From the NCBI GenBank assembly GCA_014879945.1, contig JACSRE010000189.1, forward strand, positions 1 through 38,436: DNA of 38,436 nucleotides, in the 5' to 3' direction. The translations under genes were made by a program, and so were the position numbers. The notes below the pieces were generated by a model that saw only the letters and a program-made list of their open reading frames with translations, ran no database searches and was not told the DNA's origin. Origin of the DNA: Myxococcus sp. (GTDB lineage Bacteria > Myxococcota > Myxococcia > Myxococcales > Myxococcaceae). Below are positions 1,960-29,172 of the stretch, one piece after another. How positions within the stretch are numbered: the first letter of the stretch is position 1; each line of letters opens with the position of its first letter.

Positions 1960-2068
1960 GGCGCGCACCGTAGCGCAGCCCTCCATCGACGTGCGTCTGG
2001 CTCCCTGGCGGAGCAGCTGTTTCTTCGCCGCGAGAATTTTCTACCGCGTCTCGACGCCGGCCCACCCT

Positions 2069-2248
2069 TCACGGCCCGACGATCTCGGGCCTGACGGTGC
2101 TGAAGCACGCAGGGCAGCTCAAGCTGAAGCGCACCGCGCCGGTGGCCAAGCCGACGCCCACGCAGGCGGCGTCGAGCTCATCGACCGGCACGAAGCACGC
2201 GGTCATCACCACGGCGGCGGAGGCGACGCTGAAGCGCAGCAGGCTCAT
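2069..2248 (-). CDS. Small putative Cys-containing lipoprotein
   Basis: A 59-residue frame beginning MSLLRFSVASAAVVMTAC, a short lipoprotein signal with M-T-A-C lipobox at Cys18, followed by a Cys-containing mature part (AACVGVGL, LSCPACF). The lipobox, small size and position in an otherwise empty gap favour a real gene. The lack of a clear ribosome-binding site and of any recognised family argue for caution. It lies divergent to the FadL-like gene that starts at 2345. Function unknown. Confidence 0.45.
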   Translation of the reverse strand: MSLLRFSVASAAVVMTACFVPVDELDAACVGVGLATGAVRFSLSCPACFSTVRPEIVGP

Positions 2249-2344
2249 GACGCAGCACCATCTCACGATGGGCCTCGGGGTCGACACCCGCGCGGCCAGC
2301 GCATAAGGCGCGTCCTCCGTCATTCCTTGCAGGGGGAAGTCCAC

Positions 2345-3889: not shown

Positions 3890-3909
3890 GCGTCCGCTAT
3901 GGTCGGCCC

Positions 3910-6102: not shown

Positions 6103-6211
6103 GCCGGCGGCAGCGCGTCACCGCCGCGCGCTCGTTTGGCGCGGGGGCTTGCCCGCAGCCCGTCAGCCGCGAGACAGTCGCGCGAGCACCGCCCCCGGTG
6201 TCGAGGCCGCC

Positions 6212-7738: not shown

Positions 7739-7753
7739 GGCGCGCTCCGGGCG

Positions 7754-8857
7754 TCAGTCGCCGAAGCAGACGCCGATGTCGCGCCCGGTGGCGATGGTGT
7801 CGCACTCGAGCGGCACGGCCTTCATGCGCCCGGCCACCTGCTCGAGCGGCACGTACTGCACGTTGGGGTGCGCGAGGCTGACCATCACGTCGGTCATGCC
7901 CTCTTCGAGCGCCCGCACCGCGGCGGCCCCGAAGCGCAGCGCCGCGAGCCGGTCGAACGAGGTGGGCGACCCGCCGCGCACCAGGTGGCCGAGCACCACC
8001 GTGCGGGCCTCTTTGCCCGTCTTCGCCGAGAGGGCGCGCGAGACCAGCTCGCCGATGCCCCCGAGGCGCTCGGCCTGGCCCGCCTCGGCCTGGGCCAGCA
8101 CCGCGTGCTGCCCGTCGATGACGCGCGCGCCCTCGGCCACGACCACCAGCGAGTAGCCGCGGCCGTACTCGTCGCGCTGCCGAATCTTCTCGGCCACCTT
8201 GTCGAGGTCGAAGGGAATCTCGGGGAGGAGGATGGCGTGGGCCCCGCCCGCGATGCCCGAGTGCAGCGCGATCCACCCGGCGTAGCGGCCCATCATCTCG
8301 ACGACGATGAGGCGCTGGTGGCTCTCGGCGGTGGTGTGCAGCCGGTCGAGGCACTCGGTCGCGAAGGACACGGCGGTGTCGAAGCCGAAGGTGGTGAACG
8401 TCTTGTCGAGGTCGTTGTCGATGGTCTTCGGCACGCCGATGACCTTCAGGCCCAGCTTGCCCAGCGCGTGCGCGATGGTGAGCGAGCCGTCGCCGCCGAT
8501 GCTGATCAGCGCGTCGAGGTGCTTCTTCGCGAAGAACTCGACGATCTCTCCCGACCGGTCGATCTCCTTGGTGGTGCCGTCTGGCAGGTGCAGCGGGAAG
8601 GACAGCGGGTTGCCCTTGTTGGTGGTGCCGAGCATGGTGCCGCCGAGGTGGGCGATGCCGCGCACGCGGTCGCGGGTCAGGCGCATCAGCCCGCCGTCTT
8701 CGTAGCGCTCGGGGAAGAAGACGCCGTTGAAGCCGTCGCGCAGGCCGTAGCACTCCCAGCCGCGGTTGATGGCGGCGAGCGTGCAGGCGCGAATGACGGC
8801 GTTGAGGCCCGGGGCGTCTCCGCCGCCGGTGTTGATGGCGATACGTCGAATGCTCAT
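7754..8857 (-). CDS. pfkA: 6-phosphofructokinase (PfkA family, group III-like)
   Basis: 367 residues. Catalyses phosphorylation of fructose 6-phosphate to fructose 1,6-bisphosphate in cytosolic glycolysis. Motifs: INTGGGDAPGLNAVIR at the N-terminus, IGGDGS at 120-125, PKTIDNDL at 143-150 with the catalytic Asp147, EMMGR (fructose-6-phosphate site), and HLVRGG near the C-terminus. Established residue rules: Gly at the position of E. coli Gly104 (here Gly124 in GGDG) favours ATP, whereas Asp there favours pyrophosphate. Lys at the E. coli 124 position (here Lys144) is typical of PPi enzymes but also of actinobacterial ATP-PFKs. The Gly/Lys combination therefore suggests ATP use within the mixed group III. 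It begins 9 bases after the Sir2-like fragment and converges on the kinase gene. Confidence 0.93.
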   Translation of the reverse strand: MSIRRIAINTGGGDAPGLNAVIRACTLAAINRGWECYGLRDGFNGVFFPERYEDGGLMRLTRDRVRGIAHLGGTMLGTTNKGNPLSFPLHLPDGTTKEIDRSGEIVEFFAKKHLDALISIGGDGSLTIAHALGKLGLKVIGVPKTIDNDLDKTFTTFGFDTAVSFATECLDRLHTTAESHQRLIVVEMMGRYAGWIALHSGIAGGAHAILLPEIPFDLDKVAEKIRQRDEYGRGYSLVVVAEGARVIDGQHAVLAQAEAGQAERLGGIGELVSRALSAKTGKEARTVVLGHLVRGGSPTSFDRLAALRFGAAAVRALEEGMTDVMVSLAHPNVQYVPLEQVAGRMKAVPLECDTIATGRDIGVCFGD

Positions 8858-10767: not shown

Positions 10768-11499
10768 CTACCCGGCGATGCGCGCCGCCAGGCCGTGACG
10801 CTCGACTTCCGCCGCGTGCGCGTGCATCGCCGCGGGTGACGGCGGCTCCACCTGCTCGCAGCGCGCCAAAAGCCCCAGCTGCGCGTACTTGCCGAGGTAG
10901 GTGCGCTGGTAGGGCACCAGGTGGAGCGCGCCCACGCCGAGGCCGCGAACGAAGGCCGCCGTGCGCGCCAGGTCCTCGGCGGCGTCGGTGAGGCCCGGCA
11001 CGATGGGCACGCGGAACTCGACCTGCCGCGCCCCCGAGGCCGCCAGCGCGGCGTTGGCGAGAACGCCCTCGTTGCCTCGCCCGGTGAGCGCCAGGTGCCG
11101 AGCCGGGTCGAGGTGCTTGAGGTCGAACTGCACCAGGTCAACCACCTCGAGCACCGCGCGCAGCGCCGCTTCGTCCACCGCCCCCGACGTCTGCAGGCAG
11201 GTGTGCAGCCCCGCCGCGCGCGCGCCCGCGCACAGCTCGACCACGAACGGCGCCTGCAGGAGCGGCTCGCCGCCCGACACCGTGAGCCCGCCGCCGGTCG
11301 CCTCGTAGAAGGCCCGGTCTTCGAGCACCTCGCGCAGCACCTCGCGCGCCTCGACGCTCCGCGCCGTCTGGCCCGAGAACGCCTCGGGGTTGTGGCACCA
11401 CGCGCAGCGCAGCGGACAGCCGGCGAGGAAGACGGTGGTGCGAATGCCGGGGCCGTCGTGCACGCAGCAGCGCTGCACGTCGAAGACGCGGCCCTTCAC
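10768..11499 (-). CDS. Glycyl radical enzyme activase (radical SAM, compact form)
   Basis: 243 residues from a GTG at 11499 that overlaps the stop of the glycyl radical enzyme (GTGA, 11496-11499), so the two are translationally coupled. It installs the glycyl radical on its partner using S-adenosylmethionine and a [4Fe-4S] cluster. Motifs: family N-terminus FDVQRCCVHDGPGIRT, cluster motif CPLRCAWCHNPE (Cys28, Cys32, Cys35) and the SAM-binding GGEP at 76-79. The region between the cluster motif and GGEP is short, with no CxxCxxC ferredoxin-type insert. This matches the pyruvate formate-lyase activase layout and not the usual two-extra-cluster form of dehydratase and decarboxylase activases. 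Cytosolic, active anaerobically. Confidence 0.92.
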   Translation of the reverse strand: MKGRVFDVQRCCVHDGPGIRTTVFLAGCPLRCAWCHNPEAFSGQTARSVEAREVLREVLEDRAFYEATGGGLTVSGGEPLLQAPFVVELCAGARAAGLHTCLQTSGAVDEAALRAVLEVVDLVQFDLKHLDPARHLALTGRGNEGVLANAALAASGARQVEFRVPIVPGLTDAAEDLARTAAFVRGLGVGALHLVPYQRTYLGKYAQLGLLARCEQVEPPSPAAMHAHAAEVERHGLAARIAG

Positions 11500-14042
11500 A
11501 AGGCCACCTCGGCGCGCGCGATGAGGTCGTCTTGAATGCTCGGGCCCAGCCGCGTGAAGTAGGCCGAGTAGCCCGACACCCGCACGATGAGGTCGGGGAA
11601 GTCCTGGGGGCGCTGTTGGGCCGCGCGCAGGGTCGCCGCGTCGGCGGTGTTGAACTGCACGTGGAACCCGCCGTTGCCGAAGTAGGCGCGCAGCAGCCCC
11701 GCCACCGCCTCCTGGCCCTTCTCCGAGCCGACCAGCCCGATGGGCAGCCGCATGTTGAGCGAGTTGCCGTAGCCGATGGCCGTCTGGTCGATGCGCGAGA
11801 CCGAGTTGAGCGCCGCCGTGGGGCCCTTCGTCTCGGCGCCGTTGCTGGGCGACATGCTGTTCGACAGCGGCGCGCCGGCGAAGCGCCCGTCGGGCGTGGC
11901 GGGCTCGAGCGCGCCCTCGTACACGTTCAGCCCGTACGAGATGAGGCTCGCCTTGAAGTGGCCGCCGGTGACGGTCGGCTGGGCGCGCACCAGCTCGCAG
12001 AAGCGGGCCACCACCAGCGCCGCCAGCGCGTCCACATGGGGGTCATCGACGCCGAAGCGCGGCCCGGCCCGCAGCCGCAGCCGCAGCGCCTCGTGCCCGC
12101 GGAAGTTGCAGGCGAGCGCCGCGAGGAGCTCATCCATCGACACCGCGCGCTGCTCGAAGACGAACGCCCGCACCGCCGCCAGCGAGTCGACGGCCGTGCC
12201 CAGGCCGCCGCCGCCGACCGCCCCGAAGTTGTAGCGCGCGCCTCCGCGGGTCATGTCGCGCGCGCGCTCCACGCAGCCGTCGATGGTGCTGCTGATGAGC
12301 GGGTTGTGGAACCGCTCGGCCCAGATGGCGTCACGCAGCCGGGTGGCCTCGGTCACCTGCGCCACCATCACCTCGAGCTGCCGGAAGTAGGCCGCGAGGA
12401 GCTCGTCGAACGAGCCGAAGCGCCGCGGGTCGCCGGTGTCGGGCCCATCCTGGTTGCCGAAGAACGTGGTGCGCCCGCGGTTGAAGACGAGGTCGAGCGC
12501 GGTGGGGAAGTACACCTTCGAGCCGCCGGTCGCGCCGAAGGTGTCGCCGTTGCCGCTCGGCTCGACGCAGCCCACCAGGCAGTAGTCGCGCGCGTCCTCC
12601 AGCGAGTAGCCGTCTCGCCTCAGCGTCGCGATGGCCGTCTCGTCCGAGAGGAAGGCGGGCGAGTTGGTGCGGCGGTGCATCTCGACGACGCGGCGCACGT
12701 ACTCCGGCGGGCTCTTCTTCGAGACGCGGAACGACGCGGTGGTGGCGAGGTTGGTGTTCTCGATGGCCTCGATGAAGAGCCACGAGAGCGCGTTGGTGGC
12801 GTCGGCGCCCTGTCGATCGACGCCGCCGATGGTGAGGTTCTCGACGTCGGAGCCGAGGTGGTTGAGCTCGACGCCGCCGATGTTCGGCCAGATGACGACG
12901 TTGTCGTTGAGCTTGATGACGAGCTCCTCGAGCAGGCGCAGCGCGTGGGCGCGGTCGAGGGCGCCCTTCGCGACGTCGGCCTCGTAGAAGGGCAGGAGCA
13001 GCTGGTCGACGCGGCCCGGGGTGATGCCGCTGCCCGCGCCGTAGCTGATGATGGCGGCGTTCTGCACGAACCACAGCGCCTGCACCGCCTCGGCGAAGGA
13101 GCGGGGCGGGAGCCACGGCACGCGCTCGCACCGCTGGGCCAGCTCGAGGAGCTCGCCCCGACGCTCGGCCGCGCAGCCCCCTTCTGCCTCGGCGCGGGCC
13201 AGGGTGGCGAAGCGCCGCGAGAAGGCGCGCATGGCGTCACAGGTGAGGAGCACCGCCTCGAGGAAGTGGCGCTCGTCGTCGGTGCCGGCGCGCGCGAGCC
13301 TCGCCTCGGCCTGCGCGCGAATCCCCGAGAAGCCGAGCGCCAGCACGTTCTTGTGGCCCGGCACGATGTGCGCCTGGGTGTCGGTGCAGCGCCCGCGGCC
13401 CTTCACGTTGTCGCTCGCCCCCGCGCGGATGGCCCCCAGCAGCCGCGGGAGCCGGCGCAGCAGCGGCTCGCTGGTGCCGCCCCTCGGCGTGAGGAGGCGG
13501 CCGAGCGCGCGGGGGCCGAAGGCGCGCAGCTTGCGCACCAGCTCGGCGGGCGAGGCGTTGGGCGGGCTGTCGAGGTGGTGCGCCTGCAGCGCCGCCACCT
13601 TCGCGTCGCGCACCGTGCGGCCCGCCCACCAGGGGATGAGCTCCTCGAGCAGCTCGGCCTTGTCCTCGGGGGTGATGCGGTAGCCGAAGGCCAGCAGGTC
13701 TTCGAGCAGGTAGCGGAACACGAAGGTGAAGTCGCCGCGCTCGGGCGCGATGGGCGGCGCGATGGGCTTCGAGGCGCGGTTGCCGACGAGCAGCTCCTCG
13801 GGCTCGAGGCGCAGCGTCATCTTCTCGAACACGTTGGCCAGGGCCCGGGCCGCGCGCAGCGACGGGTGCAGCCCCTCGGTCTGCCGCCACACCTCGGTGG
13901 TGTAGCGCGCGCGCTCGATGCACAGCCAGTGCTCGGCGGTGAGCAGCCGCTGCTTGAGCGCCGCGTTCTTCGGGTGGAGCGCCGTTCTCGGGGCCGAGCC
14001 AGCGCTCCCGGGCAGCGTCACGGCGGGGCGTTCGAGCTGCAT
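11496..14042 (-). CDS. Glycyl radical enzyme of the pyruvate formate-lyase superfamily
   Basis: 848 residues. The N-terminal PFL domain starts near residue 25 (LKQRLLTAEHWLCIERARYT, TEGLHPSLRAARAL). The thiyl-radical site is in DYCLVGCVEPSG, with Cys492 and a Glu two residues on (Glu494). The glycyl-radical loop is RVSGYSAYF with Gly824, near the C-terminus as expected. A single Cys followed by V-E-P, not Cys-Cys, excludes a true pyruvate formate-lyase. C-x-E occurs in glycerol and propanediol dehydratases, choline lyase, hydroxyproline dehydratase, isethionate lyase and arylacetate decarboxylases, so the substrate is open. The gene starts 2 bases after the TetR gene and overlaps the activase gene. 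No microcompartment genes are in the window. The enzyme would be oxygen-sensitive. Confidence 0.92.
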   Translation of the reverse strand: MQLERPAVTLPGSAGSAPRTALHPKNAALKQRLLTAEHWLCIERARYTTEVWRQTEGLHPSLRAARALANVFEKMTLRLEPEELLVGNRASKPIAPPIAPERGDFTFVFRYLLEDLLAFGYRITPEDKAELLEELIPWWAGRTVRDAKVAALQAHHLDSPPNASPAELVRKLRAFGPRALGRLLTPRGGTSEPLLRRLPRLLGAIRAGASDNVKGRGRCTDTQAHIVPGHKNVLALGFSGIRAQAEARLARAGTDDERHFLEAVLLTCDAMRAFSRRFATLARAEAEGGCAAERRGELLELAQRCERVPWLPPRSFAEAVQALWFVQNAAIISYGAGSGITPGRVDQLLLPFYEADVAKGALDRAHALRLLEELVIKLNDNVVIWPNIGGVELNHLGSDVENLTIGGVDRQGADATNALSWLFIEAIENTNLATTASFRVSKKSPPEYVRRVVEMHRRTNSPAFLSDETAIATLRRDGYSLEDARDYCLVGCVEPSGNGDTFGATGGSKVYFPTALDLVFNRGRTTFFGNQDGPDTGDPRRFGSFDELLAAYFRQLEVMVAQVTEATRLRDAIWAERFHNPLISSTIDGCVERARDMTRGGARYNFGAVGGGGLGTAVDSLAAVRAFVFEQRAVSMDELLAALACNFRGHEALRLRLRAGPRFGVDDPHVDALAALVVARFCELVRAQPTVTGGHFKASLISYGLNVYEGALEPATPDGRFAGAPLSNSMSPSNGAETKGPTAALNSVSRIDQTAIGYGNSLNMRLPIGLVGSEKGQEAVAGLLRAYFGNGGFHVQFNTADAATLRAAQQRPQDFPDLIVRVSGYSAYFTRLGPSIQDDLIARAEVAL

Positions 14043-18838: not shown

Positions 18839-19023
18839 AGCCGAGCGCGCCGTCATCGGTCGAGGTCGGCCGCGGTGCCGTGCACGGCGAGGGCGCCGCG
18901 TCGAAGCGCAGCGCCCGGTCGTGGTCGCGCCGCGCGGGCGGCCTTGCCGCGCACGCTGGACGCGCGGTGTCGTGGTCGCGCCGCTCGAGCTGCGTCGCCC
19001 TGGAGACGGAGAGGCTCCGATGA
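18835..19023 (+). CDS. Possible 62-residue bridging ORF
   Basis: A short frame whose ATG overlaps the stop of the Kelch gene (ATGA 18835-18838) and whose stop overlaps the start of the cytochrome lipoprotein (ATGA 19020-19023). It is Ser/Arg-rich with no signal or domain. It contains two copies of a 16-base direct repeat (18918-18933 and 18969-18984) that encode WSRR-type repeats. It could be a real tiny protein or only a translated leader keeping ribosomes coupled through a 180-base gap. Composition argues against a structured protein. Confidence 0.3.
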   Translation: MKPSAPSSVEVGRGAVHGEGAASKRSARSWSRRAGGLAAHAGRAVSWSRRSSCVALETERLR

Positions 19024-20396
19024 AGCGCGCGGTGATGGCTCTGGTGGTGGCAGCGTGTCTCGGCTGTACGGTCGAGGGCCCCGAGGGGCCCATCGGTCCT
19101 GCGGGGCCCCCCGGCGTGTCTGGGGGCAAGGGTCCGGTCGGTCCGCAAGGCGACGCCGGCGCGCAGGGGCCGCCCGGCGCGCCCGGCGCGTTCATCGTGC
19201 TCTCGGAGCGCGCGCGCCGGGGCCTCGAGGTCGCGCCGGTGAAGCTGACGCTCGAGGGCCTCACCAGCGCGCAGGTCGAGCGGGTCGGCGCCGGCAGCTA
19301 TCTCGTCAACGCGGTGGCCGACTGCGGCGCGTGTCACGACGCGCAGGGCGCTGACGGCGGGCGCCGCGCCCTCGCGGGCGGGCAGCGCTTCACCCTCGCG
19401 CCCGCGCTCGGCACCGAGGTCTACGCGCGCAACCTCACGCCCGACGCGAACACCGGGCTGACGCTCAGCGAAGACCAGTTCCTGCTCATCATGCAGACCG
19501 GCACCGACAAGAAGAACCCCAGCTCGTCGCTGCTGGTGATGCCCTGGTTCGAGTACCGGTGGATGACGGTGGACGACCTCAAGTCCATCTACGCGTACCT
19601 GAAGGCCGTCCCGCCCGAGAACAACGACGTCCCCGGCGACGTGAAGAACGACATCCCCAAGGTGACGATGCCTTTGGCCTTCGGCGACGGCGACGTGCCG
19701 CGCCCGCTGCTCCCCGAAGCGACGCGCGACGCCGACGGGGTGCTGCGCGGCTTCACCATTCAGCCGCTCGCGCAGCCTGACCTCGGCGCGTGGCCCGCCA
19801 ACGTGCAGAGCCTCTTCGGGCGCGGGAGCTACCTCGTCAACGCCGTGGGCCGGTGCAACGAGTGCCACACCAACCCGGCGCGAGACCCGACGACGCACCG
19901 AATCAACACCGCGGGCTACCTCGCCGGAGGCATGGTCTTCACCGACCCTACGGGCCCGCACGCCCCGGCGTCGCTCAAGCGGTCGATGAGCCGAAACCTC
20001 TGCGGCGCCACCAACGGCTACACCGCGCCCTTCACCGACTTCGCCGCGTCGCTCGCGTCGGGGCTGCGCGCGGGCCGCTCACCCTCAGAGAGCCTGGCCT
20101 GGCCGATGCCGACGTGGGCGCTCTCGAACCTCACCACCCAGGACCTCGAGGCCCTCTTCACCTACCTGCGCCTGGTGCCCCGCCGCATGGGCGCGGACGA
20201 CAAGCCGACGGTCGGCGCAGTCACCGCCTGCAGCGCGAGCGTGGCCTGCCCGGGGGCGCAGCGCTGCAACCTCAGCGCCGGAGAGTGCGAGGGGGCCTGC
20301 GACGCGCTCACCCCGTGCCCCGCGTGTCAGCGCTGCGTGGCGGGGGCGTGCGTGGCGCCGGCCGCCAACGACGCGTGCCTGACGTCGGGGCTCTGA
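19020..20396 (+). CDS. Diheme cytochrome c lipoprotein with collagen-like segment
   Basis: 458 residues. GGAGACGGAGAGG precedes ATG 19020. The N-terminus MKRAVMALVVAAC is a lipoprotein signal (lipobox V-A-A-C, Cys13). Residues 20-58 form 13 uninterrupted collagen-type Gly-X-Y triplets (GPE GPI GPA GPP and so on). Two class I cytochrome c domains follow, with heme motifs CGACH (102-106) and CNECH (279-283), each introduced by GSYLVNAV. This is the arrangement of diheme dehydrogenase-type cytochromes. A Cys-rich tail (from about 400) ends the protein. The rod-like spacer would hold the hemes away from the membrane. Directly upstream of the Rieske gene, it probably exchanges electrons with the bc complex. 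Confidence 0.88.
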   Translation: MKRAVMALVVAACLGCTVEGPEGPIGPAGPPGVSGGKGPVGPQGDAGAQGPPGAPGAFIVLSERARRGLEVAPVKLTLEGLTSAQVERVGAGSYLVNAVADCGACHDAQGADGGRRALAGGQRFTLAPALGTEVYARNLTPDANTGLTLSEDQFLLIMQTGTDKKNPSSSLLVMPWFEYRWMTVDDLKSIYAYLKAVPPENNDVPGDVKNDIPKVTMPLAFGDGDVPRPLLPEATRDADGVLRGFTIQPLAQPDLGAWPANVQSLFGRGSYLVNAVGRCNECHTNPARDPTTHRINTAGYLAGGMVFTDPTGPHAPASLKRSMSRNLCGATNGYTAPFTDFAASLASGLRAGRSPSESLAWPMPTWALSNLTTQDLEALFTYLRLVPRRMGADDKPTVGAVTACSASVACPGAQRCNLSAGECEGACDALTPCPACQRCVAGACVAPAANDACLTSGL

Positions 20397-20406
20397 AGGA
20401 GGCCGC

Positions 20407-20928
20407 GTGAAGGACGACCGACCGCCGACGCTGTGGACCCGACGCGACGTGCAGACGCGCTCGGCGTGGGCGCTGTTGGGCGCGAGCCTGGTGGCGATGG
20501 TGGGCGCGTTCGTGCGGCTGCTCTTCCCCCGGGTGCGCGCGGAGCCGCCGACGAAGGTGGTGCTCGGCAGCCCCGAGGCCTTCGCCGTCGGCGAGGTGAG
20601 CGAGCGGTACAAGCGCACGCACCGCTTCGTGCTCGTGCGCGAGGCCGCCGGCTTCTACGCGCTGCGCTCGGTCTGCACCCACCTGGGCTGCGTGCCGGCG
20701 TGGAGCGCGGGCCAGGAGAAGTTCAAGTGCCCCTGTCACGGGAGCGGCTTTCACCGCGACGGCGTGAACTTCGAGGGCCCGGCCCCGCGCCCGCTGGAGC
20801 GCCTGGCCATCGCGCTCGACGCCGAGAAGAACCTCGTCGTCGACACCGCGGTGGTGCTGCGGCGCGAGCGCGGTGAGTGGAGCCGCGCCGACGCCTTCCT
20901 CCCGTACCCGTCGGCGGGCCACCCATGA
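20407..20928 (+). CDS. Rieske iron-sulfur protein of the bc complex
   Basis: 173 residues. An N-terminal membrane anchor (about 18-42, SAWALLGASLVAMVGAFVRLL) is followed by the Rieske fold with both cluster motifs: CTHLGC (Cys90, His92, Cys95) and CPCHGSGF (Cys108, Cys110, His111). Cys95 and Cys110 would form the usual disulfide. It takes one electron from quinol at the Qo site of the cytochrome b below. AAGGAGG ends a few bases before the ATG, a strong ribosome-binding site. Its stop overlaps the cytochrome b start (ATGA, 20925-20928). Confidence 0.95.
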   Translation: MKDDRPPTLWTRRDVQTRSAWALLGASLVAMVGAFVRLLFPRVRAEPPTKVVLGSPEAFAVGEVSERYKRTHRFVLVREAAGFYALRSVCTHLGCVPAWSAGQEKFKCPCHGSGFHRDGVNFEGPAPRPLERLAIALDAEKNLVVDTAVVLRRERGEWSRADAFLPYPSAGHP

Positions 20929-21731
20929 GCGACGCGCCCCCGCCCTCGACGCGCGAGGGCCCTCCCCCCGGGCTGGTGAAGGAGGTGGTGCGGTCGGCGT
21001 TGCGCGTCGAGAACGTCGACACCCCGAGGAACCGGGTGCTCGCGGTCGCGCACACCGTGTGGCTGCACCTGCACCCCACCAAGGTGCCGCGCTACTCGGT
21101 GCGCTTCAGCTTCACCTGGGGCGCCGGTGGCATCAGCTTTCTGCTCTTCCTCGTCACCGTGGTGACCGGCGTGGTGCTGATGTTCGTCTACCGCCCGACG
21201 CCCGAGCACGCCTGGCTCGACGTGAAGCGGCTCGACTTCGACGTGCCCTTCGGCATGTTGAACCGCAACATGCACCGCTGGGCGGCGCACGCGATGGTCA
21301 TCGTGGTGTGGGTGCACCTGCTGCGTGTCTTCCTGACGGGCTCGTACAAGGCGCCGCGGCAGTTCAACTGGGTCGTCGGCGTCGGGCTGCTCACCTTGAC
21401 GATGCTGCTCTCGTTCACCGGCTACCTGCTGCCGTGGGACCAGCTGTCGATGTGGGCGGTGACGGTGGGCACCAACATGGCCGCGGCCGCGCCCGTCATC
21501 GGCCACGAAGGCCCCTTCGCGGCGCCGGGCCTGAGCGCGACCAACGACGTGCGCGCGCTGCTGCTCGGCGGCCCCACGGTGGGGAGCGCGGCGCTCCTGC
21601 GCTTCTACATCCTCCACTGCGTGGCGCTGCCGATGGCCCTGGGCCTGGGCTGCATCGTCCACTTCTGGCGGGTGCGCCGCGACGGCGGCATCAGCGGGCC
21701 CGGCACCTCGGGGCCGAAGGGAGCGCCCTGA
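20925..21731 (+). CDS. Cytochrome b N-terminal subunit (b6-like)
   Basis: 268 residues with four membrane helices: the two-heme half of a split cytochrome b. Heme-ligand histidines are His117 and His131 in helix B (14 apart) and probably His231 and His246 in helix D. The 15-residue spacing in helix D is that of cytochrome b6, not mitochondrial cytochrome b. The motif SFTGYLLPWDQLSMWAVTVG is the classic Qo-side stretch. A polar 50-residue N-terminal extension precedes the first helix. It forms the core of the quinol-oxidising complex with the Rieske protein and the following subunit. Confidence 0.94.
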   Translation: MSDAPPPSTREGPPPGLVKEVVRSALRVENVDTPRNRVLAVAHTVWLHLHPTKVPRYSVRFSFTWGAGGISFLLFLVTVVTGVVLMFVYRPTPEHAWLDVKRLDFDVPFGMLNRNMHRWAAHAMVIVVWVHLLRVFLTGSYKAPRQFNWVVGVGLLTLTMLLSFTGYLLPWDQLSMWAVTVGTNMAAAAPVIGHEGPFAAPGLSATNDVRALLLGGPTVGSAALLRFYILHCVALPMALGLGCIVHFWRVRRDGGISGPGTSGPKGAP

Positions 21732-22637
21732 GTGGAGCCGCTCCTCCACATCCTCCTCAAGCCCGACAACGTGCCCATCGTGCTGATGGTGCCGCTCTTC
21801 GCCGGCATCCTGCTCCACTGGTGGCGCGCGGCGCGGCGCCACGACCGGCTGCTCGTCGAGGGCGGAGAGGCCGCCGTCCGCCGTGAGCTCGACGGGCCGC
21901 TGCCCGAGGGCACGCCGGAGCCGAAGCTCCACACCTGGCCGTACCTGCTGCGCGTCGAGCTCATCGCAGCGCTCGCCACGGTGGTGGTGCTGCTGGTGTG
22001 GTCCATCACGCTCGACGCGCCGCTCGAGCAGCTCGCCGACCCGACGCGCACGCCCAACCCCAGCAAGGCGCCCTGGTACTTCCTGGGGCTGCAGGAGCTG
22101 CTCGTCTACTTCGACCCGTGGGTGGCGGGCGTGGCGCTGCCGCTGCTCATCATCGCGGGCCTCTGCCTCATTCCGTACCTCGACGTGAACCCGGCCGGGA
22201 GCGGCTTTCACTCGTGGCGCGGCCGCCGCTTCGCCGTCTCGGTCTTCCTCTTCGGCTTCGTCGGCCTCTGGCTGGGGTTGATCCTCGTGGGCACCTTCTG
22301 TCGCGGCCCGGGGTGGAACTGGTTCTGGCCGTGGGAGCCGTGGGACCGCGCGCGCGCGGTGGAGCTCGCCACCCGTGACTGGCCGGCGCTCTTCGGGGTC
22401 TCTCCCGGGCCGGGCGCCTCGCTGCTGGGCGGCGCGACGGTGCTGGGCTGGTACGGCCTGGGGCTGGTCGGCTGGCGGCTCCTGCGCCACCGGCCCGCGC
22501 TGCAACGCCTCGGCGGCTCGCGCTACGCGGTGGTGGCGTTCCTGCTGCTCACCATGCTCGCGGTGCCGGTGAAGATGGCGCTGCGGCTGGGCTTCTCGGT
22601 CAAGTACGTGTGGACGACGCCGTGGTTCAACCTGTGA
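21732..22637 (+). CDS. Cytochrome b C-terminal subunit (subunit IV-like, enlarged)
   Basis: 301 residues from a GTG that directly abuts the preceding stop. It carries the C-terminal half of cytochrome b. The Qo motif, classically PEWY, reads A-P-W-Y at 113-116 (KAPWYFLGLQELLVYFDPWV), so the usual Glu is missing and proton exit from quinol must use another residue. The text PYLDVNPAGSGFHSWRGRRF follows, as in many non-phototrophic bacterial complexes. About six hydrophobic segments make it longer than plant subunit IV (about 160). Two extra helices at the C-terminus may dock the octaheme cytochrome. Its stop overlaps the next start as GTGA (22634-22637). Confidence 0.92.
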   Translation: MEPLLHILLKPDNVPIVLMVPLFAGILLHWWRAARRHDRLLVEGGEAAVRRELDGPLPEGTPEPKLHTWPYLLRVELIAALATVVVLLVWSITLDAPLEQLADPTRTPNPSKAPWYFLGLQELLVYFDPWVAGVALPLLIIAGLCLIPYLDVNPAGSGFHSWRGRRFAVSVFLFGFVGLWLGLILVGTFCRGPGWNWFWPWEPWDRARAVELATRDWPALFGVSPGPGASLLGGATVLGWYGLGLVGWRLLRHRPALQRLGGSRYAVVAFLLLTMLAVPVKMALRLGFSVKYVWTTPWFNL

Positions 22638-24838
22638 AGCCCGGCGGCCGCGCGGCGGAGTCCACCAGCTACCGGGCGCCGTTCCTTCTCCTCTGCGCGC
22701 TCCTCTTCCTCTCGACGCTCTGGGCCCTCTGGGACGAGGGCTGGGGGCGGCGGCCGTGGAAGGCGACCCAGGCGCGCTTCAACGAGGTGCTCGCGCAGCG
22801 AGGGCTGCCGCCGGTGGACGAGGGCCTCAGGCAGGTGACGATTCCCGCGCTCGACGTCGCCGACCGCTGCCAGTCCTGCCACCTCGGCGTCGATCGGCCC
22901 GGCCTCGAGAGCGACGAGGTGCCGCGCGTGCTGCGCACACACCCGCGCCGTGACGAGCTGCTCGGCCGACACCCGGTGGAGCGCGTGGGCTGTACGCCGT
23001 GCCACGCCGGGCAGGGGCTGCAGACCAAGGGCGTCGGCGGGGCGGCCTTCGCGCACGGGCGTGACGACCCGTACTGGGAGCAGCCGCTGCGCTCGAGGCC
23101 CTTCATCGAGTCGAGCTGTGTCGCCTGTCACGCCAGCGAGCGCGAGGTGCCAGGGGCGCCGTTGTTCAACCGCGGGCGCGCGCTCTTCGAAGACCGCCGC
23201 TGCTCGGCGTGTCACTCGAGCCGGTACGTGACGACGCCCGCGCCCGCGGCGCCTCCGCTCGACCGGTTGAGAGAGAAGACCTCCGAGGCCTTCGTGGTGG
23301 CGTGGCTGCGCGACCCGGTGAAGCTGCGGGCCGGCACGCGCATGCCGGCGTTCTGGCCGGAGGCAGGCGCGCGGCGCGAGCAGGAGCCGGTGGCCATCGC
23401 CGCCTTCCTCGGCAGCGTGAGCGAGGCCGCGAGCGCGCCGGGCAGCGCCCCGCCGACCCGGGAGGAGGTCGAGGCCGGCAAGGCGCTGTTCGACGCCGTC
23501 GGGTGTCGCGGGTGTCATCAGCTCGCAGACGAGGCCGCCGGCCCGCCCGAGGCGGGCTTTGGCCCCCGCCTCGACGGCATCGGCGCGCGCGCGACGCGGG
23601 CGTGGCTCCAGGCGTGGCTGAAGAACCCGCGCGCCCAGTTCGCAGACGCGCGCATGCCGGACCTGCGCTTGAGCGACGACGAGGCCGCCGCGCTCGCCGC
23701 CTTCCTCGCGTCGCAGGTGCCGGCCGGTGAGCAGCCGCTCGAGCCGCGCTGGTCCACGCCCGACGCCGCGCTCGTCAGCCAGGGCCGGCAGGCGGTGCTC
23801 CGCTACGGCTGTCAGGCCTGTCACCGCATTCCCGGGCTGACGCCGGCCGGGCGCCCAGGCCCCGACCTCGACGACTTCGGCGACCTGCCGCCGGAGCGGG
23901 TGGAGTGGGGTGAAGGCCGGCCCGCCTGCGACTTCACCGAGCGCGAGTGCTGGACGCTGGCGAAGCTCCGCCACCCCCAGGCCCTGCGTCGGCCCGGGCT
24001 CGACCTGGTGATGCCGCGCTTCGACCTGTCCGACGACGAGGCGTTGGCGCTCTCGGTGTTCCTCCTCTCGAACCGCGCGCAGCCCGCGGTGCCCCGTCAG
24101 GTGAGCGAGGCGTCGGCGGCCATCGCGGCGGGCGAGCAGGTGATGGCGCGGCACAACTGCGCGGGGTGCCACGAGGTGGCGCGTGAGGAGCGCCGCGTCG
24201 GCGACGAGGTGCAGACGACGGTGCGCGGCGGGCAGATTCGCCGGTTCTACGACGACGACGCGCTCGCGCCGCCGCCGCTCTCGCGGGCCGGCCAGAAGTT
24301 CCAGCTCCGGTGGCTGTTCGACTTCCTCCACCAGCCGCGTCGGGTGCGCCCGTGGCTCTCCGTGCGCATGCCGACGTTCGCGCTCGAGGACCGCGAGGTC
24401 GAGGCGCTCCTGCGCTCCTTCGCCGCGCGCAGCGGCCAGCCCTTCCCCTTCGAGCGCGAGGCGCCGCTCCTGGCAGGCCCCGGCGAGCGCGCCGACGCCA
24501 CCTTCCTGCTCGAGAAGATGCAGTGCGCGCGCTGCCACGCCGTCGGCGCCGGAAGAGACGTGAAGCCCGCCGAGCGCGCGCCCGACCTGACGCTCGCCGC
24601 CGGCCGCCTCAAGCCCGGGTGGATGCGCGCGTGGCTGCTCGACCCGCAGGCGCTGCAGCCCGGCACCCGCATGCCCGCCTACTTCTTCCTCACCGACGAC
24701 GACGACCCGACGAGCTGGAGCACGCCGTACCCCAACGTGCTCGGAGGAAACGCCACGCGTCAGGTCGACGCGCTGGTCTGGCTCACCACCGAGCTGGGGC
24801 GGCAGGCCCCGGCGCACCCCGAAGGAGCACCCCGATGA
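22634..24838 (+). CDS. Membrane-anchored octaheme cytochrome c of the bc operon
   Basis: 734 residues from GTG 22634, which overlaps the stop of the cytochrome b C-terminal gene. An N-terminal anchor (YRAPFLLLCALLFLSTLWAL) is followed by eight CXXCH motifs: CQSCH, CTPCH, CVACH, CSACH, CRGCH, CQACH, CAGCH and CARCH. Five MP-containing loops (RMPAF, RMPDL, VMPRF, RMPTF, RMPAYF) look like axial methionine ligands of class I cytochrome c folds. The first hemes seem to form a multiheme N-terminal module, the rest at least four cytochrome c domains in tandem. This replaces the single-heme cytochrome c1 or f of textbook complexes. It would carry electrons from the Rieske protein through a long periplasmic heme wire. 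Confidence 0.93.
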   Translation: MKPGGRAAESTSYRAPFLLLCALLFLSTLWALWDEGWGRRPWKATQARFNEVLAQRGLPPVDEGLRQVTIPALDVADRCQSCHLGVDRPGLESDEVPRVLRTHPRRDELLGRHPVERVGCTPCHAGQGLQTKGVGGAAFAHGRDDPYWEQPLRSRPFIESSCVACHASEREVPGAPLFNRGRALFEDRRCSACHSSRYVTTPAPAAPPLDRLREKTSEAFVVAWLRDPVKLRAGTRMPAFWPEAGARREQEPVAIAAFLGSVSEAASAPGSAPPTREEVEAGKALFDAVGCRGCHQLADEAAGPPEAGFGPRLDGIGARATRAWLQAWLKNPRAQFADARMPDLRLSDDEAAALAAFLASQVPAGEQPLEPRWSTPDAALVSQGRQAVLRYGCQACHRIPGLTPAGRPGPDLDDFGDLPPERVEWGEGRPACDFTERECWTLAKLRHPQALRRPGLDLVMPRFDLSDDEALALSVFLLSNRAQPAVPRQVSEASAAIAAGEQVMARHNCAGCHEVAREERRVGDEVQTTVRGGQIRRFYDDDALAPPPLSRAGQKFQLRWLFDFLHQPRRVRPWLSVRMPTFALEDREVEALLRSFAARSGQPFPFEREAPLLAGPGERADATFLLEKMQCARCHAVGAGRDVKPAERAPDLTLAAGRLKPGWMRAWLLDPQALQPGTRMPAYFFLTDDDDPTSWSTPYPNVLGGNATRQVDALVWLTTELGRQAPAHPEGAPR

Positions 24839-25560
24839 CCGCCACCCGCTTCCTTGCCGTCCTCCTCCTCCTCGCGTCGCCGCTGGCCCTCGCCGAAGAC
24901 GCCGTGGGTGTGGTGCGCGGCACCGTGACGCTCAAGGGCACGCCCCCCAAGGCGCCCGAGGTGAAGCTGCCCGCCGACCTGGCCGAGAAGGACCGCGCGT
25001 TCTGCACCGCGAAGCCGTCGCTGGTGCCGCCCTTCTACGTCACCGACAAGGCCGCCCACCTCAAGGACGTGGTGGTGTGGCTCACCGGGGTGAAGGGCGC
25101 CGCCGGCCCCGCCACGCCGCGCTCGCTGGTGAACGCCGACTGTCGCTTCGAGCCGCACGTGCAGGCGGTGACGGTCGGCGACGAGCTCAAGGTGGTGAAC
25201 CGCGACCCGCTGCTGCACAACACGCACCCGGTCTACCTGGGCGACCAGAGCACGATGTTCAACATCGCGCTCCCCGAGCAGGGCCAGGAGGTGAAGAAGA
25301 AGGTGAAGAAGCCCGGCGTGCTGAAGGTGCAGTGCGACGCGGGCCACGTGTGGATGCGGGCCTTCGTGCACGTCTTCGACCACCGCTTCCACGCCGTCAC
25401 CGGCGCCGACGGGGCCTTCGCCATCGCCGACGTTCCCCCCGGCAAGTACACGCTCAACGCGTGGCACGAGGCGGCGGGCACGCAGACGCGAGAGGTGGAG
25501 GTCACCGCGACCACGCCGAGCCAGAGCGACTTCAGCTTCGAGGTGAAGCCCGTGCCCTGA
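24835..25560 (+). CDS. Periplasmic cupredoxin-like protein with carboxypeptidase-regulatory-like domain
   Basis: 241 residues, ATG overlapping the previous stop (ATGA). The signal peptide is MTATRFLAVLLLLASPLALA. The central domain has the makings of a type 1 copper site: H-N-T-H at 128-131, then VQCDAGHVWM (Cys167, His171, Met174). Families of this kind usually read CDxHPWM; here one residue is inserted. A terminal beta-sandwich (VTGADGAFAIADVPPGKYTL, NAWHEAAGTQ) is of the CarboxypepD_reg type. Last gene of the bc operon, it may be a copper electron carrier taking electrons from the octaheme cytochrome or a structural subunit. Copper binding is inferred. Confidence 0.82.
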   Translation: MTATRFLAVLLLLASPLALAEDAVGVVRGTVTLKGTPPKAPEVKLPADLAEKDRAFCTAKPSLVPPFYVTDKAAHLKDVVVWLTGVKGAAGPATPRSLVNADCRFEPHVQAVTVGDELKVVNRDPLLHNTHPVYLGDQSTMFNIALPEQGQEVKKKVKKPGVLKVQCDAGHVWMRAFVHVFDHRFHAVTGADGAFAIADVPPGKYTLNAWHEAAGTQTREVEVTATTPSQSDFSFEVKPVP

Positions 25561-25617
25561 GCCGAGCGTGGGCCACACGCACTCCGCCGCGGCTCACTCC
25601 CACGGGGTGCGTGGCCC
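25558..25617. terminator. Bidirectional terminator-like inverted repeats between convergent operons
   Basis: Between the cupredoxin-like gene and the converging diheme cytochrome gene, TGAGCCG (25558-25564) pairs with CGGCTCA (25590-25596), and the stop codons of both genes lie in these arms. A second, overlapping repeat pairs GGGCCACACGCAC-type sequence (25570-25583) with GGGGTGCGTGGCCC (25604-25617), with a two-base bulge. There is no T-tract. The location between converging stops supports a shared terminator. Confidence 0.4.
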
Positions 25618-26355
25618 GAAGAGCCAGCGGAAGAAGCCGGGGCTGCGCGAGAGCGAGCGCACGTAGTGAACGAGGGCCCAGCGGTCCTCCTCGCTGGGCA
25701 GGCTGTCGCCGTACGAGGGCATCGGCGTGCCGTCGAGGCCGGTGACGAAGGTGCGGTACACGTCCTGGGGGGTGGAGCCGCCCTTGTAGAGCCCGACGGT
25801 GAAGTCGAGCGGCGCGGTGCTCTCGCCGTGGTCGTCCACCGCCGTCGCCGCGGCGGGCCCGTCGCCGCGCCCCTCGGGGCCGTGGCACTGGCCGCACTTG
25901 AGTGACTGGTAGAGCGCGCGGCCGCGCTCCCTCGCGGCGGGCGTGTCGGGCAGCGGCCGGAGCTCTCCTGCGGGCGGCACGACTCGCTCCGGGGGCTCAC
26001 CCTTCGGCCCGAAGGCGAGCACGTAGCCGGCGACGGCCTTGAGGTCGGTGGGCGACAGGAGCGGCCCGAACGCCGTCATCCACGTGCCGCGAACACCGGT
26101 GGAGACGGTGCGCATCACGTCGCTGAGCAGCGGGCGCTCGCCCGACTCGGTGCTGCGGAACTTGAAGGCGCCGGTGACGAAGTTGCGCGGCTTCGGAGAG
26201 AGCGCCGCCGCGCCCGGGCCGCGCCCGTCACCCTCGCGCCCGTGGCAGCTCTCACAGGCGTCGCGGTAGACGACGCCCCCGCGCACGAGGTCGGGCGGCT
26301 CGTCGCCCCACGCGCTCACCGCCAGCAGCAGCGCCACCGCCAGGCCCGCGCGCAT
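25594..26355 (-). CDS. Periplasmic diheme cytochrome c
   Basis: 253 residues. A signal peptide (MRAGLAVALLLAVSAWG) is followed by two cytochrome c domains with CESCH (34-38) and CGQCH (154-158). Each is followed by a G-x-G-D-G-x-G loop (HGREGDGRGPG, HGPEGRGDGPA) and has a Met ligand candidate (TWMTAFG, TPMPSYG). Its ATG directly follows the TAG of the cytochrome-porin gene, so it is in the same operon. It is a likely shuttle between the inner-membrane bc/octaheme complex and the outer-membrane cytochrome-barrel. The two operons converge here. Confidence 0.92.
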   Translation of the reverse strand: MRAGLAVALLLAVSAWGDEPPDLVRGGVVYRDACESCHGREGDGRGPGAAALSPKPRNFVTGAFKFRSTESGERPLLSDVMRTVSTGVRGTWMTAFGPLLSPTDLKAVAGYVLAFGPKGEPPERVVPPAGELRPLPDTPAARERGRALYQSLKCGQCHGPEGRGDGPAAATAVDDHGESTAPLDFTVGLYKGGSTPQDVYRTFVTGLDGTPMPSYGDSLPSEEDRWALVHYVRSLSRSPGFFRWLFGPRTPWE

Positions 26356-27501
26356 CTAGAGGAACCCGTGGAGCTGAACGACGAAGAAGTCTCCGCGCCC
26401 CTGCACCCGCTGCGGAATGTCGTCGCGCATCACGTAGGTGGCCGTGACGCGAAGGAAAGGAATGGGGAACACCTCGACCGTCAGCGCGAGGCGGGTGCGG
26501 TGGTCCTGGGCGACCTTCAGGTTGGCGTCGTGGTACCCGAAGGCCGCGCGCACCCCGACGCCGCGGGTGATGAGCAGGTCGGCCTCGGCGTGCGCCGCCA
26601 GCTCGAAGCTCTGCGTGCGCTCACCGCCCTTGGGCCGCGCGGTGTCGACGATGAGGTCCACCTCGGAGAGGAGCGTCAGCCGGCCGAAGTTCGCCGCCGC
26701 GAAGCCGCCGCCGACCTGCCGCACCGACAGGCCCGCGGGCGTGGTGCCGTCGTTCCACGAGTACGAGGCGCCGACGCGCCCCCAGCGCGCCTTCACGCCG
26801 GCCGACGCGGTGAGCTGCTTGCGCTCGTTGTCGTCGGTGCCGCCCAGGGTGCCGTTGCTCAACGCGGCGGTGATGAAGGCCGGCCCCGGCTCGGCGCCCA
26901 CCTCGACGCCGAGGTCCTGGTTGCCGAAGTTGAAGCCCGTCGCCTGGCGCACGAAGGCCTCGTCGTCGGCGAGCCGCAGCCCGTACGGCAGGAGGATGCG
27001 CCCGGCCTTCGCGTAGCCCCCGTAGGGCAGGCCGTAGAGCAGAATCATCGCCTCGCGCGCCGACGCGCCCTCGGGGCCAAGCTTCTCGTCGAGGTAGAGG
27101 GCCAGGTGGTCCTTCACGACGGTGAGCTCTCCGTAGAGGTTGGCCTGGGGTACGCGCAGGGTGTTGCCGCCGGGCGCCACCAGCCACTCGCCCTCGAACT
27201 GCGTGCGCACCGTCTCGACCGTCACGTGCTGCACGCGCACGTCGGCGCCCACCGACACGTATTCGCCGAGGTTGGGGCTGACGACGCCCAGCCGCGTGGT
27301 GTCGGAGCCTGGCCGCCACAGCGGGAGCGCGGTCTGCGAGTAGTTGGCCCCGAAGGCGTTGCGTTTGCCGCCGCCGGCGCGGTTGACGTGGCACTGGCTG
27401 CAGAGAAAGCCCTCGCGCACGGCGAGGTGCGGCTCGGCGTTCGCGGTGAGGGCGAGCAGCGTGAGGGAGAGCGCGGCGCGCGCGAGGGAGCCGTCAGTCA
27501 C
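26356..27501 (-). CDS. Monoheme cytochrome fused to outer-membrane beta-barrel (Cyc2-like layout)
   Basis: 381 residues from GTG 27501, chosen because it overlaps the upstream stop by 8 bases, has GGAG nearby and starts a clean signal peptide ending TANA|EPH; an upstream TTG is possible. Right after the signal lies one heme motif, CSQCH (34-38), in GFLCSQCHVNRAGGGKRNAF. The remaining 320 residues look like a beta-barrel: alternating strands with short turns (EYVSVGADVRVQHVTVETV, GVGVRAAFGYHDANLKVAQD) and a final strand DFFVVQLHGFL ending in Leu after Phe. One heme at the mouth of a porin is the architecture of Cyc2 iron oxidases, though sequence homology is not shown. It probably passes electrons across the outer membrane. 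Confidence 0.82.
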   Translation of the reverse strand: MTDGSLARAALSLTLLALTANAEPHLAVREGFLCSQCHVNRAGGGKRNAFGANYSQTALPLWRPGSDTTRLGVVSPNLGEYVSVGADVRVQHVTVETVRTQFEGEWLVAPGGNTLRVPQANLYGELTVVKDHLALYLDEKLGPEGASAREAMILLYGLPYGGYAKAGRILLPYGLRLADDEAFVRQATGFNFGNQDLGVEVGAEPGPAFITAALSNGTLGGTDDNERKQLTASAGVKARWGRVGASYSWNDGTTPAGLSVRQVGGGFAAANFGRLTLLSEVDLIVDTARPKGGERTQSFELAAHAEADLLITRGVGVRAAFGYHDANLKVAQDHRTRLALTVEVFPIPFLRVTATYVMRDDIPQRVQGRGDFFVVQLHGFL

Positions 27502-28060
27502 GCGGCGCTCCGCGAGCAATCCACGCGCGAATCGCCTCGAGCTTCTCGGCCGAGAGGTACGGCGGCTCGTTCAACGGCATGCGCTCTCCGACCCGGCGGG
27601 GATCCGACGGAATCACCTTGAGGTAGAGGTAGCTGTTCAGCGGGTCGCCGGGCTTGATGAGTGTCAGGGCTGGCACCTCGACGGACTTCACGCCGACGAT
27701 GCGCTGGTAGGCGTTGACCGCGTCGAGCTGCATGCCCTTGGGCGCGCTGGCGCCGCGATGGCAGTACGCCGCGCAGGTCTGGGTGAAGATGTTCTTCTGA
27801 ATCCACCCGTAGCGCGCGCGCTCGTCGACGACGCCCGCGTCGACCTCGGCCACGCCGCCGTCGTCGCTGGCGCCGCCGTCGTGCACGCCCGCGTCGCGCG
27901 GCAGCTCGTTGTTCCCGCCCGCGTCCACCGCGAGGCCCGCGTCGCGTCGCGGCCGGCCCTCGACGTCGAGGTCTTCGCCGGTGCCGGCGCAGGCCGCCGC
28001 AGTCGCGAGCAACAGCGCCGTCGCCCAGGCCTTCCATGCGTCGAGCGAGCGCGCCGTCAT
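27494..28060 (-). CDS. Lipoprotein with CX3CH cytochrome-like domain
   Basis: 188 residues from ATG 28060. Signal MTARSLDAWKAWATALLLAT leads into AAAC (Cys24), a weak lipobox. An acidic Asp/Gly-rich linker (about 25-80) precedes a domain resembling planctomycete-type cytochrome c-like modules: IFTQTCAAYCHRGASAPKGM, then KPGDPLNSYLYLKVIP, GERMPLNEP and a C-terminal helix. The heme-type motif is C-A-A-Y-C-H (Cys96, Cys100, His101), i.e. CX3CH instead of CX2CH. Met161 could be an axial ligand. First gene of the cytochrome-porin operon (8-base overlap). A surface or periplasmic partner for the barrel is likely; heme attachment at CX3CH is uncertain. Confidence 0.8.
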   Translation of the reverse strand: MTARSLDAWKAWATALLLATAAACAGTGEDLDVEGRPRRDAGLAVDAGGNNELPRDAGVHDGGASDDGGVAEVDAGVVDERARYGWIQKNIFTQTCAAYCHRGASAPKGMQLDAVNAYQRIVGVKSVEVPALTLIKPGDPLNSYLYLKVIPSDPRRVGERMPLNEPPYLSAEKLEAIRAWIARGAPRD

Positions 28061-28201: not shown

Positions 28202-28414
28202 CTACGCCTCGCGCTTCCCGCCGACGAAGAGCCCGGTCACACCGGCCACGAGCAGCGTCACGCCGCCGATGATCAGCCACATCGAGCGGTCGGTCGGGGT
28301 TCCGGTGAAGACGCGGCTGACGTCGGAGCTGAACGACTCGGAGGCGCTGACGCCGTAGACGGTGAGCGCGATGCCCGCCGCCACGACGGCGAGCGCGATG
28401 GCGCGGGCGATCAC
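28202..28414 (-). CDS. DUF3185-family small membrane protein
   Basis: 70 residues from GTG 28414 that overlaps the stop of the ice-binding gene (GTGA, 28411-28414). Two hydrophobic helices (about 5-22 and 45-64) flank a polar loop containing SESFSSDVSRVFTGTPTDRS, the conserved signature of DUF3185. Family function is unknown; members are small inner-membrane proteins. Translational coupling to the ice-binding lipoprotein is notable but may reflect only the compact genome. Confidence 0.85.
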   Translation of the reverse strand: MIARAIALAVVAAGIALTVYGVSASESFSSDVSRVFTGTPTDRSMWLIIGGVTLLVAGVTGLFVGGKREA

Positions 28415-29172
28415 GGCTGCACCACCGTCGCGGCGTCCAGGACGACCGCCGTCTGGGCCAGCAGGCGGCCCGTCACCGATGCGCCAGTGCGCAGCGCGAT
28501 CGCCGTCTGCGAGAGCACGACGCCCTCGAGGTGTGAAGCGGTGCCTAGCTCAACCCGACCGGCGACCTGCCAGAAGACGTGCCTCGGCTGCGCGCCGCCC
28601 GAGAGCAGCACCTTCACGCCGTTGCTCACCGTGAGGTCCTGCGCGACTTGAAAGACCCAGACGTCGGTCGCCGTGCCTCTGAGCGTGACCTCGGCGGGGA
28701 TGAGGAGCCCGGTGCCCCACCGGTAGACCCCTGCCTCGATCGTCATGCCGCCGATGTTGCCAGCGCCCAGCTCGGTGACCGCTGCGGGGCGACCTGCGGC
28801 GGCGGTGAAGGCGAGCTCCATGTCACCGACCGCGGCGGTGAGACGGCTGGGCGTCGGCGGCGTGTCGTCGGACGCGTAGATCCTCCCGGTCACCTGGGTC
28901 GAGGTGGAGAAGGTGTTCGTCGCGTCGGCGGTGCGCGAGAAGCCTGTGACGAAGGTCGCGGCGGCGGGGCTCAGGCCGACGTCTCCGGTGATGGCCGAGG
29001 CCGGGACCGTCGAGACGCCGCTCTTGGCGAGGATGACGAAGGCGCTCGCGGCGCCGAGGTTCACCGGGTCGGCGGGCGGGTTGCCGCCATCGGGGAGCCT
29101 GCCGCCGCCGACGGGACCGCACGCCGTGAGCGCAAAGACGACAGAGAACAGCGAGTGGGTGGAGTGGTTCAT
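28411..29172 (-). CDS. Ice-binding protein (DUF3494 family) lipoprotein
   Basis: 253 residues. Signal MNHSTHSLFSVVFALTAC with lipobox L-T-A-C (Cys18), then a short Gly/Pro linker. From residue about 39 the sequence follows the DUF3494 ice-binding fold throughout: NLGAASAFVILAKSGVSTVP, SAITGDVGLSPAAATFVTGF, NTFSTSTQVTGRIYASD, ELGAGNIGGMTIEAGVYRWG, QPRHVFWQVAGRVELG and GRLLAQTAVVLD. This fold is an irregular three-sided beta-helix whose flat face binds ice in fungal and bacterial antifreeze proteins. The lipid anchor would display it on the cell surface, as an ice adhesin or freeze protectant. Homologues also exist in mesophiles, so ice binding itself is inferred. Confidence 0.9.
   Translation of the reverse strand: MNHSTHSLFSVVFALTACGPVGGGRLPDGGNPPADPVNLGAASAFVILAKSGVSTVPASAITGDVGLSPAAATFVTGFSRTADATNTFSTSTQVTGRIYASDDTPPTPSRLTAAVGDMELAFTAAAGRPAAVTELGAGNIGGMTIEAGVYRWGTGLLIPAEVTLRGTATDVWVFQVAQDLTVSNGVKVLLSGGAQPRHVFWQVAGRVELGTASHLEGVVLSQTAIALRTGASVTGRLLAQTAVVLDAATVVQP

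Follow-up and report, generated by a model that had tools for sequence, protein, structure and literature searches.

Among fused monoheme cytochrome-porins Cyc2 is the main one recognised, and it serves as a marker of iron oxidation. In Cyc2 and Cyt572 a cytochrome and a porin share one chain (PMC8406198, PMC7029218); the motifs of Cyc2 are AXPXFAR[Q/K][T/Y] upstream of CXXCH and PXL four residues after CXXCH, and OprP and OprO have been reported as its structural relatives (PMC8406198). The MtrCAB, MtoAB and PCC3 systems combine an outer-membrane barrel with periplasmic and surface cytochromes, and in them a separate multiheme cytochrome is enclosed by a large barrel of 26 strands. In the selenite/tellurite ext cluster of Geobacter, the porin ExtI contains a single Cys and lacks a heme motif, and its deletion lowers selenite and tellurite reduction (PMC5877670).

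Here we describe a three-gene operon on the minus strand of a 38,436-nucleotide stretch of Myxococcus DNA, the whole of which we call the window, from a genome of 7.7 Mb that is 98.7% complete and whose closest named relatives are Myxococcales/Myxococcaceae MAGs. Judged by motif, the operon encodes two monoheme proteins and one diheme protein. Its features, in the order in which the genes are read, are as follows.

27494-28060, minus strand: heme lipoprotein of about 188 aa, with a lipobox (...AAAC) and the motif CAAYCH (CX3CH)
27758-27775, minus strand: CX3CH heme motif (CAAYCH) of the lipoprotein
26356-27501, minus strand: putative fused monoheme cytochrome-porin of 381 aa with a GTG start, signal peptide ...LTANA|EPHL and predicted porin fold over residues ~66-381
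27388-27402, minus strand: CSQCH heme motif, residues 34-38, in AEPHLAVREGFLCSQCHVNRAGGGKRNAFG
26368-26370, minus strand: codon of His378, the third residue before the C-terminal one
25594-26355, minus strand: periplasmic diheme cytochrome c of 253 aa (CESCH, CGQCH), with two Cytochrome_CBB3 stretches (E 6.6e-20)

The lipoprotein and barrel genes share 8 nt (GTGACTGA) at the stop of the one and the start of the other, and the ATG of the diheme gene comes right after the TAG stop codon of the barrel gene. Judged from these frames, the barrel gene is translationally coupled both to the heme lipoprotein upstream and to the diheme cytochrome c downstream. Third-position GC is 0.88-0.96 in all three frames and all three genes are kept in homologues, so the frames are not due to chance. 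Like the MtrCAB type, the window system pairs an outer-membrane barrel with periplasmic and surface cytochromes; unlike it, the barrel is small (about 16 strands predicted) and carries its own single heme motif.

The barrel protein had no match in Pfam, NCBIfam or PDB sequence searches, and for the Pfam porin families Porin_4 and Porin_O_P no match of the window protein reached the gathering cut-off, weak matches being confined to single relatives. AlphaFold2 models, for which only four sequences were eligible and which are accordingly of low confidence, gave a mean pLDDT of 51 (pTM 0.52) with the signal peptide and 57.8 (pTM 0.60) without it, the latter with about 16 predicted strands. Foldseek matched the model to OprP (2o4v, E 8e-11), PorB (3wi4, E 4e-10) and OmpF, and VIA gave Z-scores of 22-24 over 274-304 residues at an rmsd of 3.1-3.8. 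These matches are all 16-stranded porins, with OprP/OprO the nearest; those porins share the predicted fold and carry no heme. With low confidence, then, the models suggest a 16-stranded outer-membrane porin fold, with heme motif and porin in one chain. An earlier reading made from the sequence alone (the sequence-only reading) had grouped the barrel gene with a CX3CH lipoprotein and a diheme cytochrome, and had given the middle gene a signal peptide, a single CSQCH and a barrel-like C-terminal region; the coupled frames, the company kept in homologues and the two low-confidence models all agree with it. A soluble beta-propeller, which that reading had named as the alternative to a barrel, is not the fold that the models give, which is of OprP/OmpF type. 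It had also looked to structure prediction for a heme peptide in the lumen or at the mouth of the barrel; the barrel was predicted, while the peptide (residues ~23-65) was essentially unmodelled and so could not be placed, because only four sequences were eligible.

With the single protein as query we obtained matches in 18 of 195 Myxococcota genomes, and a profile search extended the superfamily to 63 of the 195 and to a few Pseudomonadota. Via the N-terminus, the superfamily profile also drew Cyc2-type proteins from Pseudomonadota genomes, which were told by AXPXFARQT...CXXCH...PXL. The superfamily has three branches, whose barrels are mutually homologous (hhalign probability 99.1-99.9%). 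The window's branch has the pattern REG...CXXCH.N..GGG; the AYP branch (AYPxMIRHGYxxCxxCHVDPSGGG) is common in the bacterial family of the window's host; and the third carries two N-terminal hemes (C..CH...C..CH..GGG) ahead of the barrel (loci L077, L079, L085 and L046). A second fused heme-porin, of the AYP branch, lies in the window's own genome (G000:C86, locus L103, 6969-8132), where the gene after the barrel encodes a monoheme protein whose tail is MYXO-CTERM-like. In 18 of the 22 AYP-branch loci the barrel is followed by a monoheme protein of about 150 residues that ends in a Cys-transmembrane-Arg tail of the surface-sorting type; its scores lie below the MYXO-CTERM cut-offs (TIGR03901/TIGR03382, 13.8-16.0 against 20 and 14.7 against 15.85 bits), and the likeness is one of resemblance only. 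Taken with the lipoprotein of the window's branch, this partner means that a heme-porin stands with a separate surface-type monoheme protein in two branches, the partners being different.

The sequence-only reading had hinged on conservation of CXXCH among homologues, and the motif is intact in all 34 aligned superfamily members. Equally invariant are Gly43, Gly51, Arg89, Gly167, Gly174, Arg185, Gly244 and Glu280, with Arg149 (32 of 34) and His378 (31 of 34) nearly so; His378 has no counterpart in the Cyc2 set. In outer-membrane barrels the terminal residue faces lipid. Counting back by strand alternation, His378 would face the lumen near the periplasmic end, and it is therefore a candidate for the sixth, axial ligand of the heme.

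Comparison with Cyc2 gave different answers for the two parts of the chain. The ~37-residue heme segments of the window's barrel protein and of Cyc2 align in hhalign with a probability of 97% (E 5e-11, which like our other hhalign E-values refers to a single comparison of short heme segments), whereas in a control the heme segments of the diheme cytochrome and of the AYP-branch partner score only 18-61% against Cyc2. The barrel parts score 0.1-0.4% against the Cyc2 barrel, far from the values between the new branches; homology below detection is conceivable. PXL is absent: VNRAGGGKRNAFG follows CSQCH, and none of the eight rows of the window's branch has PXL at that place. The upstream motif is only partly kept, since the window's AEPHLAVRE matches AXPX and the following A and not FAR[QK][TY] as a whole. 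The window protein shares with Cyc2 a signal peptide, a single N-terminal CXXCH, a related heme segment and, in the low-confidence models, a C-terminal OprP/OprO-like 16-strand porin. It differs in having a glycine-rich NxxGGGxRNxFG instead of PXL, no detectable barrel homology, and, in its family, a conserved C-terminal His and a constant heme-lipoprotein partner. These sequence comparisons place the window protein in a family of its own, as a fused cytochrome-porin that is Cyc2-like and not Cyc2: the heme segment is related, the barrel is not detectably so, PXL is missing and AXPXFAR is incomplete. Identity with Cyc2 is rejected on the same points. The earlier statement that heme and porin lie in one chain, as in Cyc2, is thus right for the architecture and the heme segment and finds no support in the motifs and the barrel sequence; likewise, the profile comparison with Cyc2 and porin families that it proposed supports the heme segment, with the barrel and the Pfam porins falling short. 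The architecture class is already known from Cyc2. The superfamily, its barrel, its motif and its partners are apparently new, as no description of them was found in the open-access literature searched, where absence is not proof.

The partners of the barrel are themselves conserved. In 12 of the 14 loci of the window's branch, which lie in Myxococcota and in Pseudomonadota, the gene immediately upstream of the barrel encodes a homologue of the lipoprotein. The lipoprotein motif reads CX3CH for the window and its three closest relatives, while one pseudomonadotal locus (L115) has CX4CH and the others have CXXCH; the CX2CH, CX3CH and CX4CH variants share one aligned position (window; L026, L028, L031, L032, L033, L115). 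Such variation within one small family provides a natural test series for the specificity of heme attachment. The two Cytochrome_CBB3 stretches of the diheme protein mark it as class I cytochrome c. Its homologue adjoins the barrel in nine loci, eight found by tblastn and one, pseudomonadotal, by reading, and is missing from five pseudomonadotal loci. In the pseudomonadotal locus L118 (G679, 1929-8539), genes for a four-heme protein, a two-heme protein, a diheme cytochrome, a heme lipoprotein and the barrel are consecutive.

The operon converges on a plus-strand cluster, as the sequence-only reading had it when it described a bc complex with an octaheme cytochrome and a cupredoxin-like protein. 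The ends are 33 nt apart, and a search between the two operons for consensus sites resembling a terminator or a promoter found none.

19020-20396, plus strand: diheme lipoprotein with collagen-like GPP repeats after the lipobox, first gene of the cluster
20407-20928, plus strand: Rieske [2Fe-2S] protein (PF00355, E 2.2e-10; CTHLGC...CPCH)
20925-21731, plus strand: cytochrome b, b6/ExtP-like (PF00033, E 1e-39)
21732-22637, plus strand: subunit IV/ExtQ-like membrane protein, the split cytochrome b partner in the cluster
22610-24838, plus strand: octaheme cytochrome c (8 CXXCH)
24835-25560, plus strand: cupredoxin-like protein with a carboxypeptidase-regulatory-like domain (PF13620, E 1e-8; weak pseudoazurin match, E 0.04)

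The barrel adjoins the bc cluster in three genomes. In G016, from another family of the phylum, the eight genes for lipoprotein, barrel, diheme, Rieske, b, subunit IV, octaheme and cupredoxin proteins form a collinear series in which neighbours overlap or lie apart by ~15 nt at most, and G150 keeps the window's convergent arrangement. The collagen-repeat lipoprotein is kept in G150 and G067, and in G147 it lies near the barrel operon. An octaheme match is present in six of the seven Myxococcota genomes with the window's branch, as against 23 of 195 overall (hypergeometric 9e-6, uncorrected for relatedness). The co-occurrence that the sequence-only reading proposed to check is real in this sense, yet the Rieske/cytochrome b/octaheme/cupredoxin cluster recurs in Myxococcota usually without a superfamily barrel alongside. 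Seventeen genomes have the octaheme protein and no barrel of the window's branch, so the bc cluster does not need the barrel; nine further octaheme regions (L119-L127), of which some are short or truncated where a contig ends, contained no superfamily barrel, and the Pseudomonadota loci that were read showed no bc cluster close to the barrel. The dependence is not mutual, and the link is real but local. That cluster and barrel form one obligatory system is rejected, since many genomes have the cluster by itself. The window also encodes, at 10768-14042 and thus about 5 kb away from the bc genes, a pyruvate-formate-lyase-like glycyl radical enzyme and its radical SAM activase, which suggest anaerobic metabolism.

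The observed gene order, motifs, family conservation and synteny, together with the modelled barrel fold, point to an arrangement in which we infer heme attachment, the plug position, the role of His378 and the electron partners. The mature N-terminus would be a short covalent-heme peptide on a 16-stranded porin, most likely plugging the periplasmic mouth of the barrel, where conserved barrel residues could hold it: His378 as candidate axial ligand, and Arg89, Arg149, Arg185 and Glu280. On one side the pore heme may exchange electrons with the periplasmic diheme cytochrome, which would join the bc/octaheme branch of the quinol chain; on the other, its partner may be a soluble outside molecule reached by way of the pore, or the heme lipoprotein. 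Entry of a soluble molecule into the pore is the model proposed for Cyc2 (PMC8406198). As a whole, this reading (a Cyc2-like cytochrome-porin of a separate family, with a heme plug at the periplasmic mouth, the diheme inside, and an outside molecule or the lipoprotein as partner) has in our estimate a probability of about 60%. The barrel protein, with its own predicted heme, probably passes electrons across the outer membrane. For the outer-membrane electron conduit of the sequence-only reading, the barrel, heme motif and cytochrome partners are in place; as one heme alone is not enough to bridge the membrane, conduction is something we still infer. Tentatively, the three proteins might form a minimal single-heme relay, with a surface-anchored monoheme protein, a monoheme peptide in a small porin and a periplasmic diheme, distinguished by a barrel separate from that of Cyc2, the lack of a multiheme wire, a wide spread in myxobacteria and a barrel His as sixth ligand.

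As to direction, outward flow from quinol to an outside acceptor is mildly favoured over inward flow. The neighbouring bc-type quinol oxidase, the glycyl radical enzyme pair with its hint of anaerobic growth, and the lack of a RuBisCO large subunit among the genes found in the genome all speak for export. In the case of uptake, proposed for Cyc2, the pore heme would oxidise a soluble reductant, Fe(II) for example, and the diheme would hand the electrons on to terminal oxidases. The homologous heme segment, the diheme partner and the genome's three matches to haem-copper oxidase subunit I fit uptake. We consider it rather doubtful: besides the missing RuBisCO, the operon contains no oxidase gene, the PXL of Cyc2 is missing, and a bc complex normally oxidises quinol.

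It is also conceivable, but unlikely, that the barrel is an oxyanion port with a reductase partner, an OprP-like anion pore that admits an oxyanion, toxic or respirable (selenite, tellurite, arsenate or similar), to the periplasmic cytochromes, with the pore heme donating electrons as part of a system like the Geobacter ext cluster. There too a porin gene is clustered with a Rieske protein, an ExtP/Q-type cytochrome b and multiheme cytochromes; the nearest NCBIfam models for the window's b, IV and c proteins are ExtP, ExtQ and ExtS; and the OprP/OprO-like fold, the invariant arginines and the effect of ExtI deletion are in keeping with such a port. All three Ext matches, however, fall below the curated cut-offs (258 against 290 bits for ExtP, 57 against 150 for ExtQ and 69 against 100 for ExtS), ExtI has no heme motif where the window protein has CSQCH, and the pseudomonadotal barrels lie apart from any bc cluster in the loci read. 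That the protein is an ordinary porin whose CXXCH is structural or metal-binding and holds no heme would suit a single motif on a very short N-terminal domain, heme being predicted from the motif, and is highly improbable given the invariance of CXXCH, its Cyc2-like surroundings and the c-type cytochromes nearly always beside the barrel.

If the preferred reading of a separate-family cytochrome-porin is correct, Cyc2 would be joined by a second large family of its architecture, in which the heme peptide is related to that of Cyc2, the barrel looks unrelated and a heme lipoprotein is the constant partner, and the known routes for electrons through outer membranes would then reach into the myxobacteria. 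A heme peptide like that of Cyc2 is not by itself enough to call a protein an iron oxidase. With small-protein partners this constant, the system can be put to the test with only three genes. Adjoining the cytochrome operon, at 28411-29172 of the window, is a lipoprotein with an ice-binding-like domain (PF11999).
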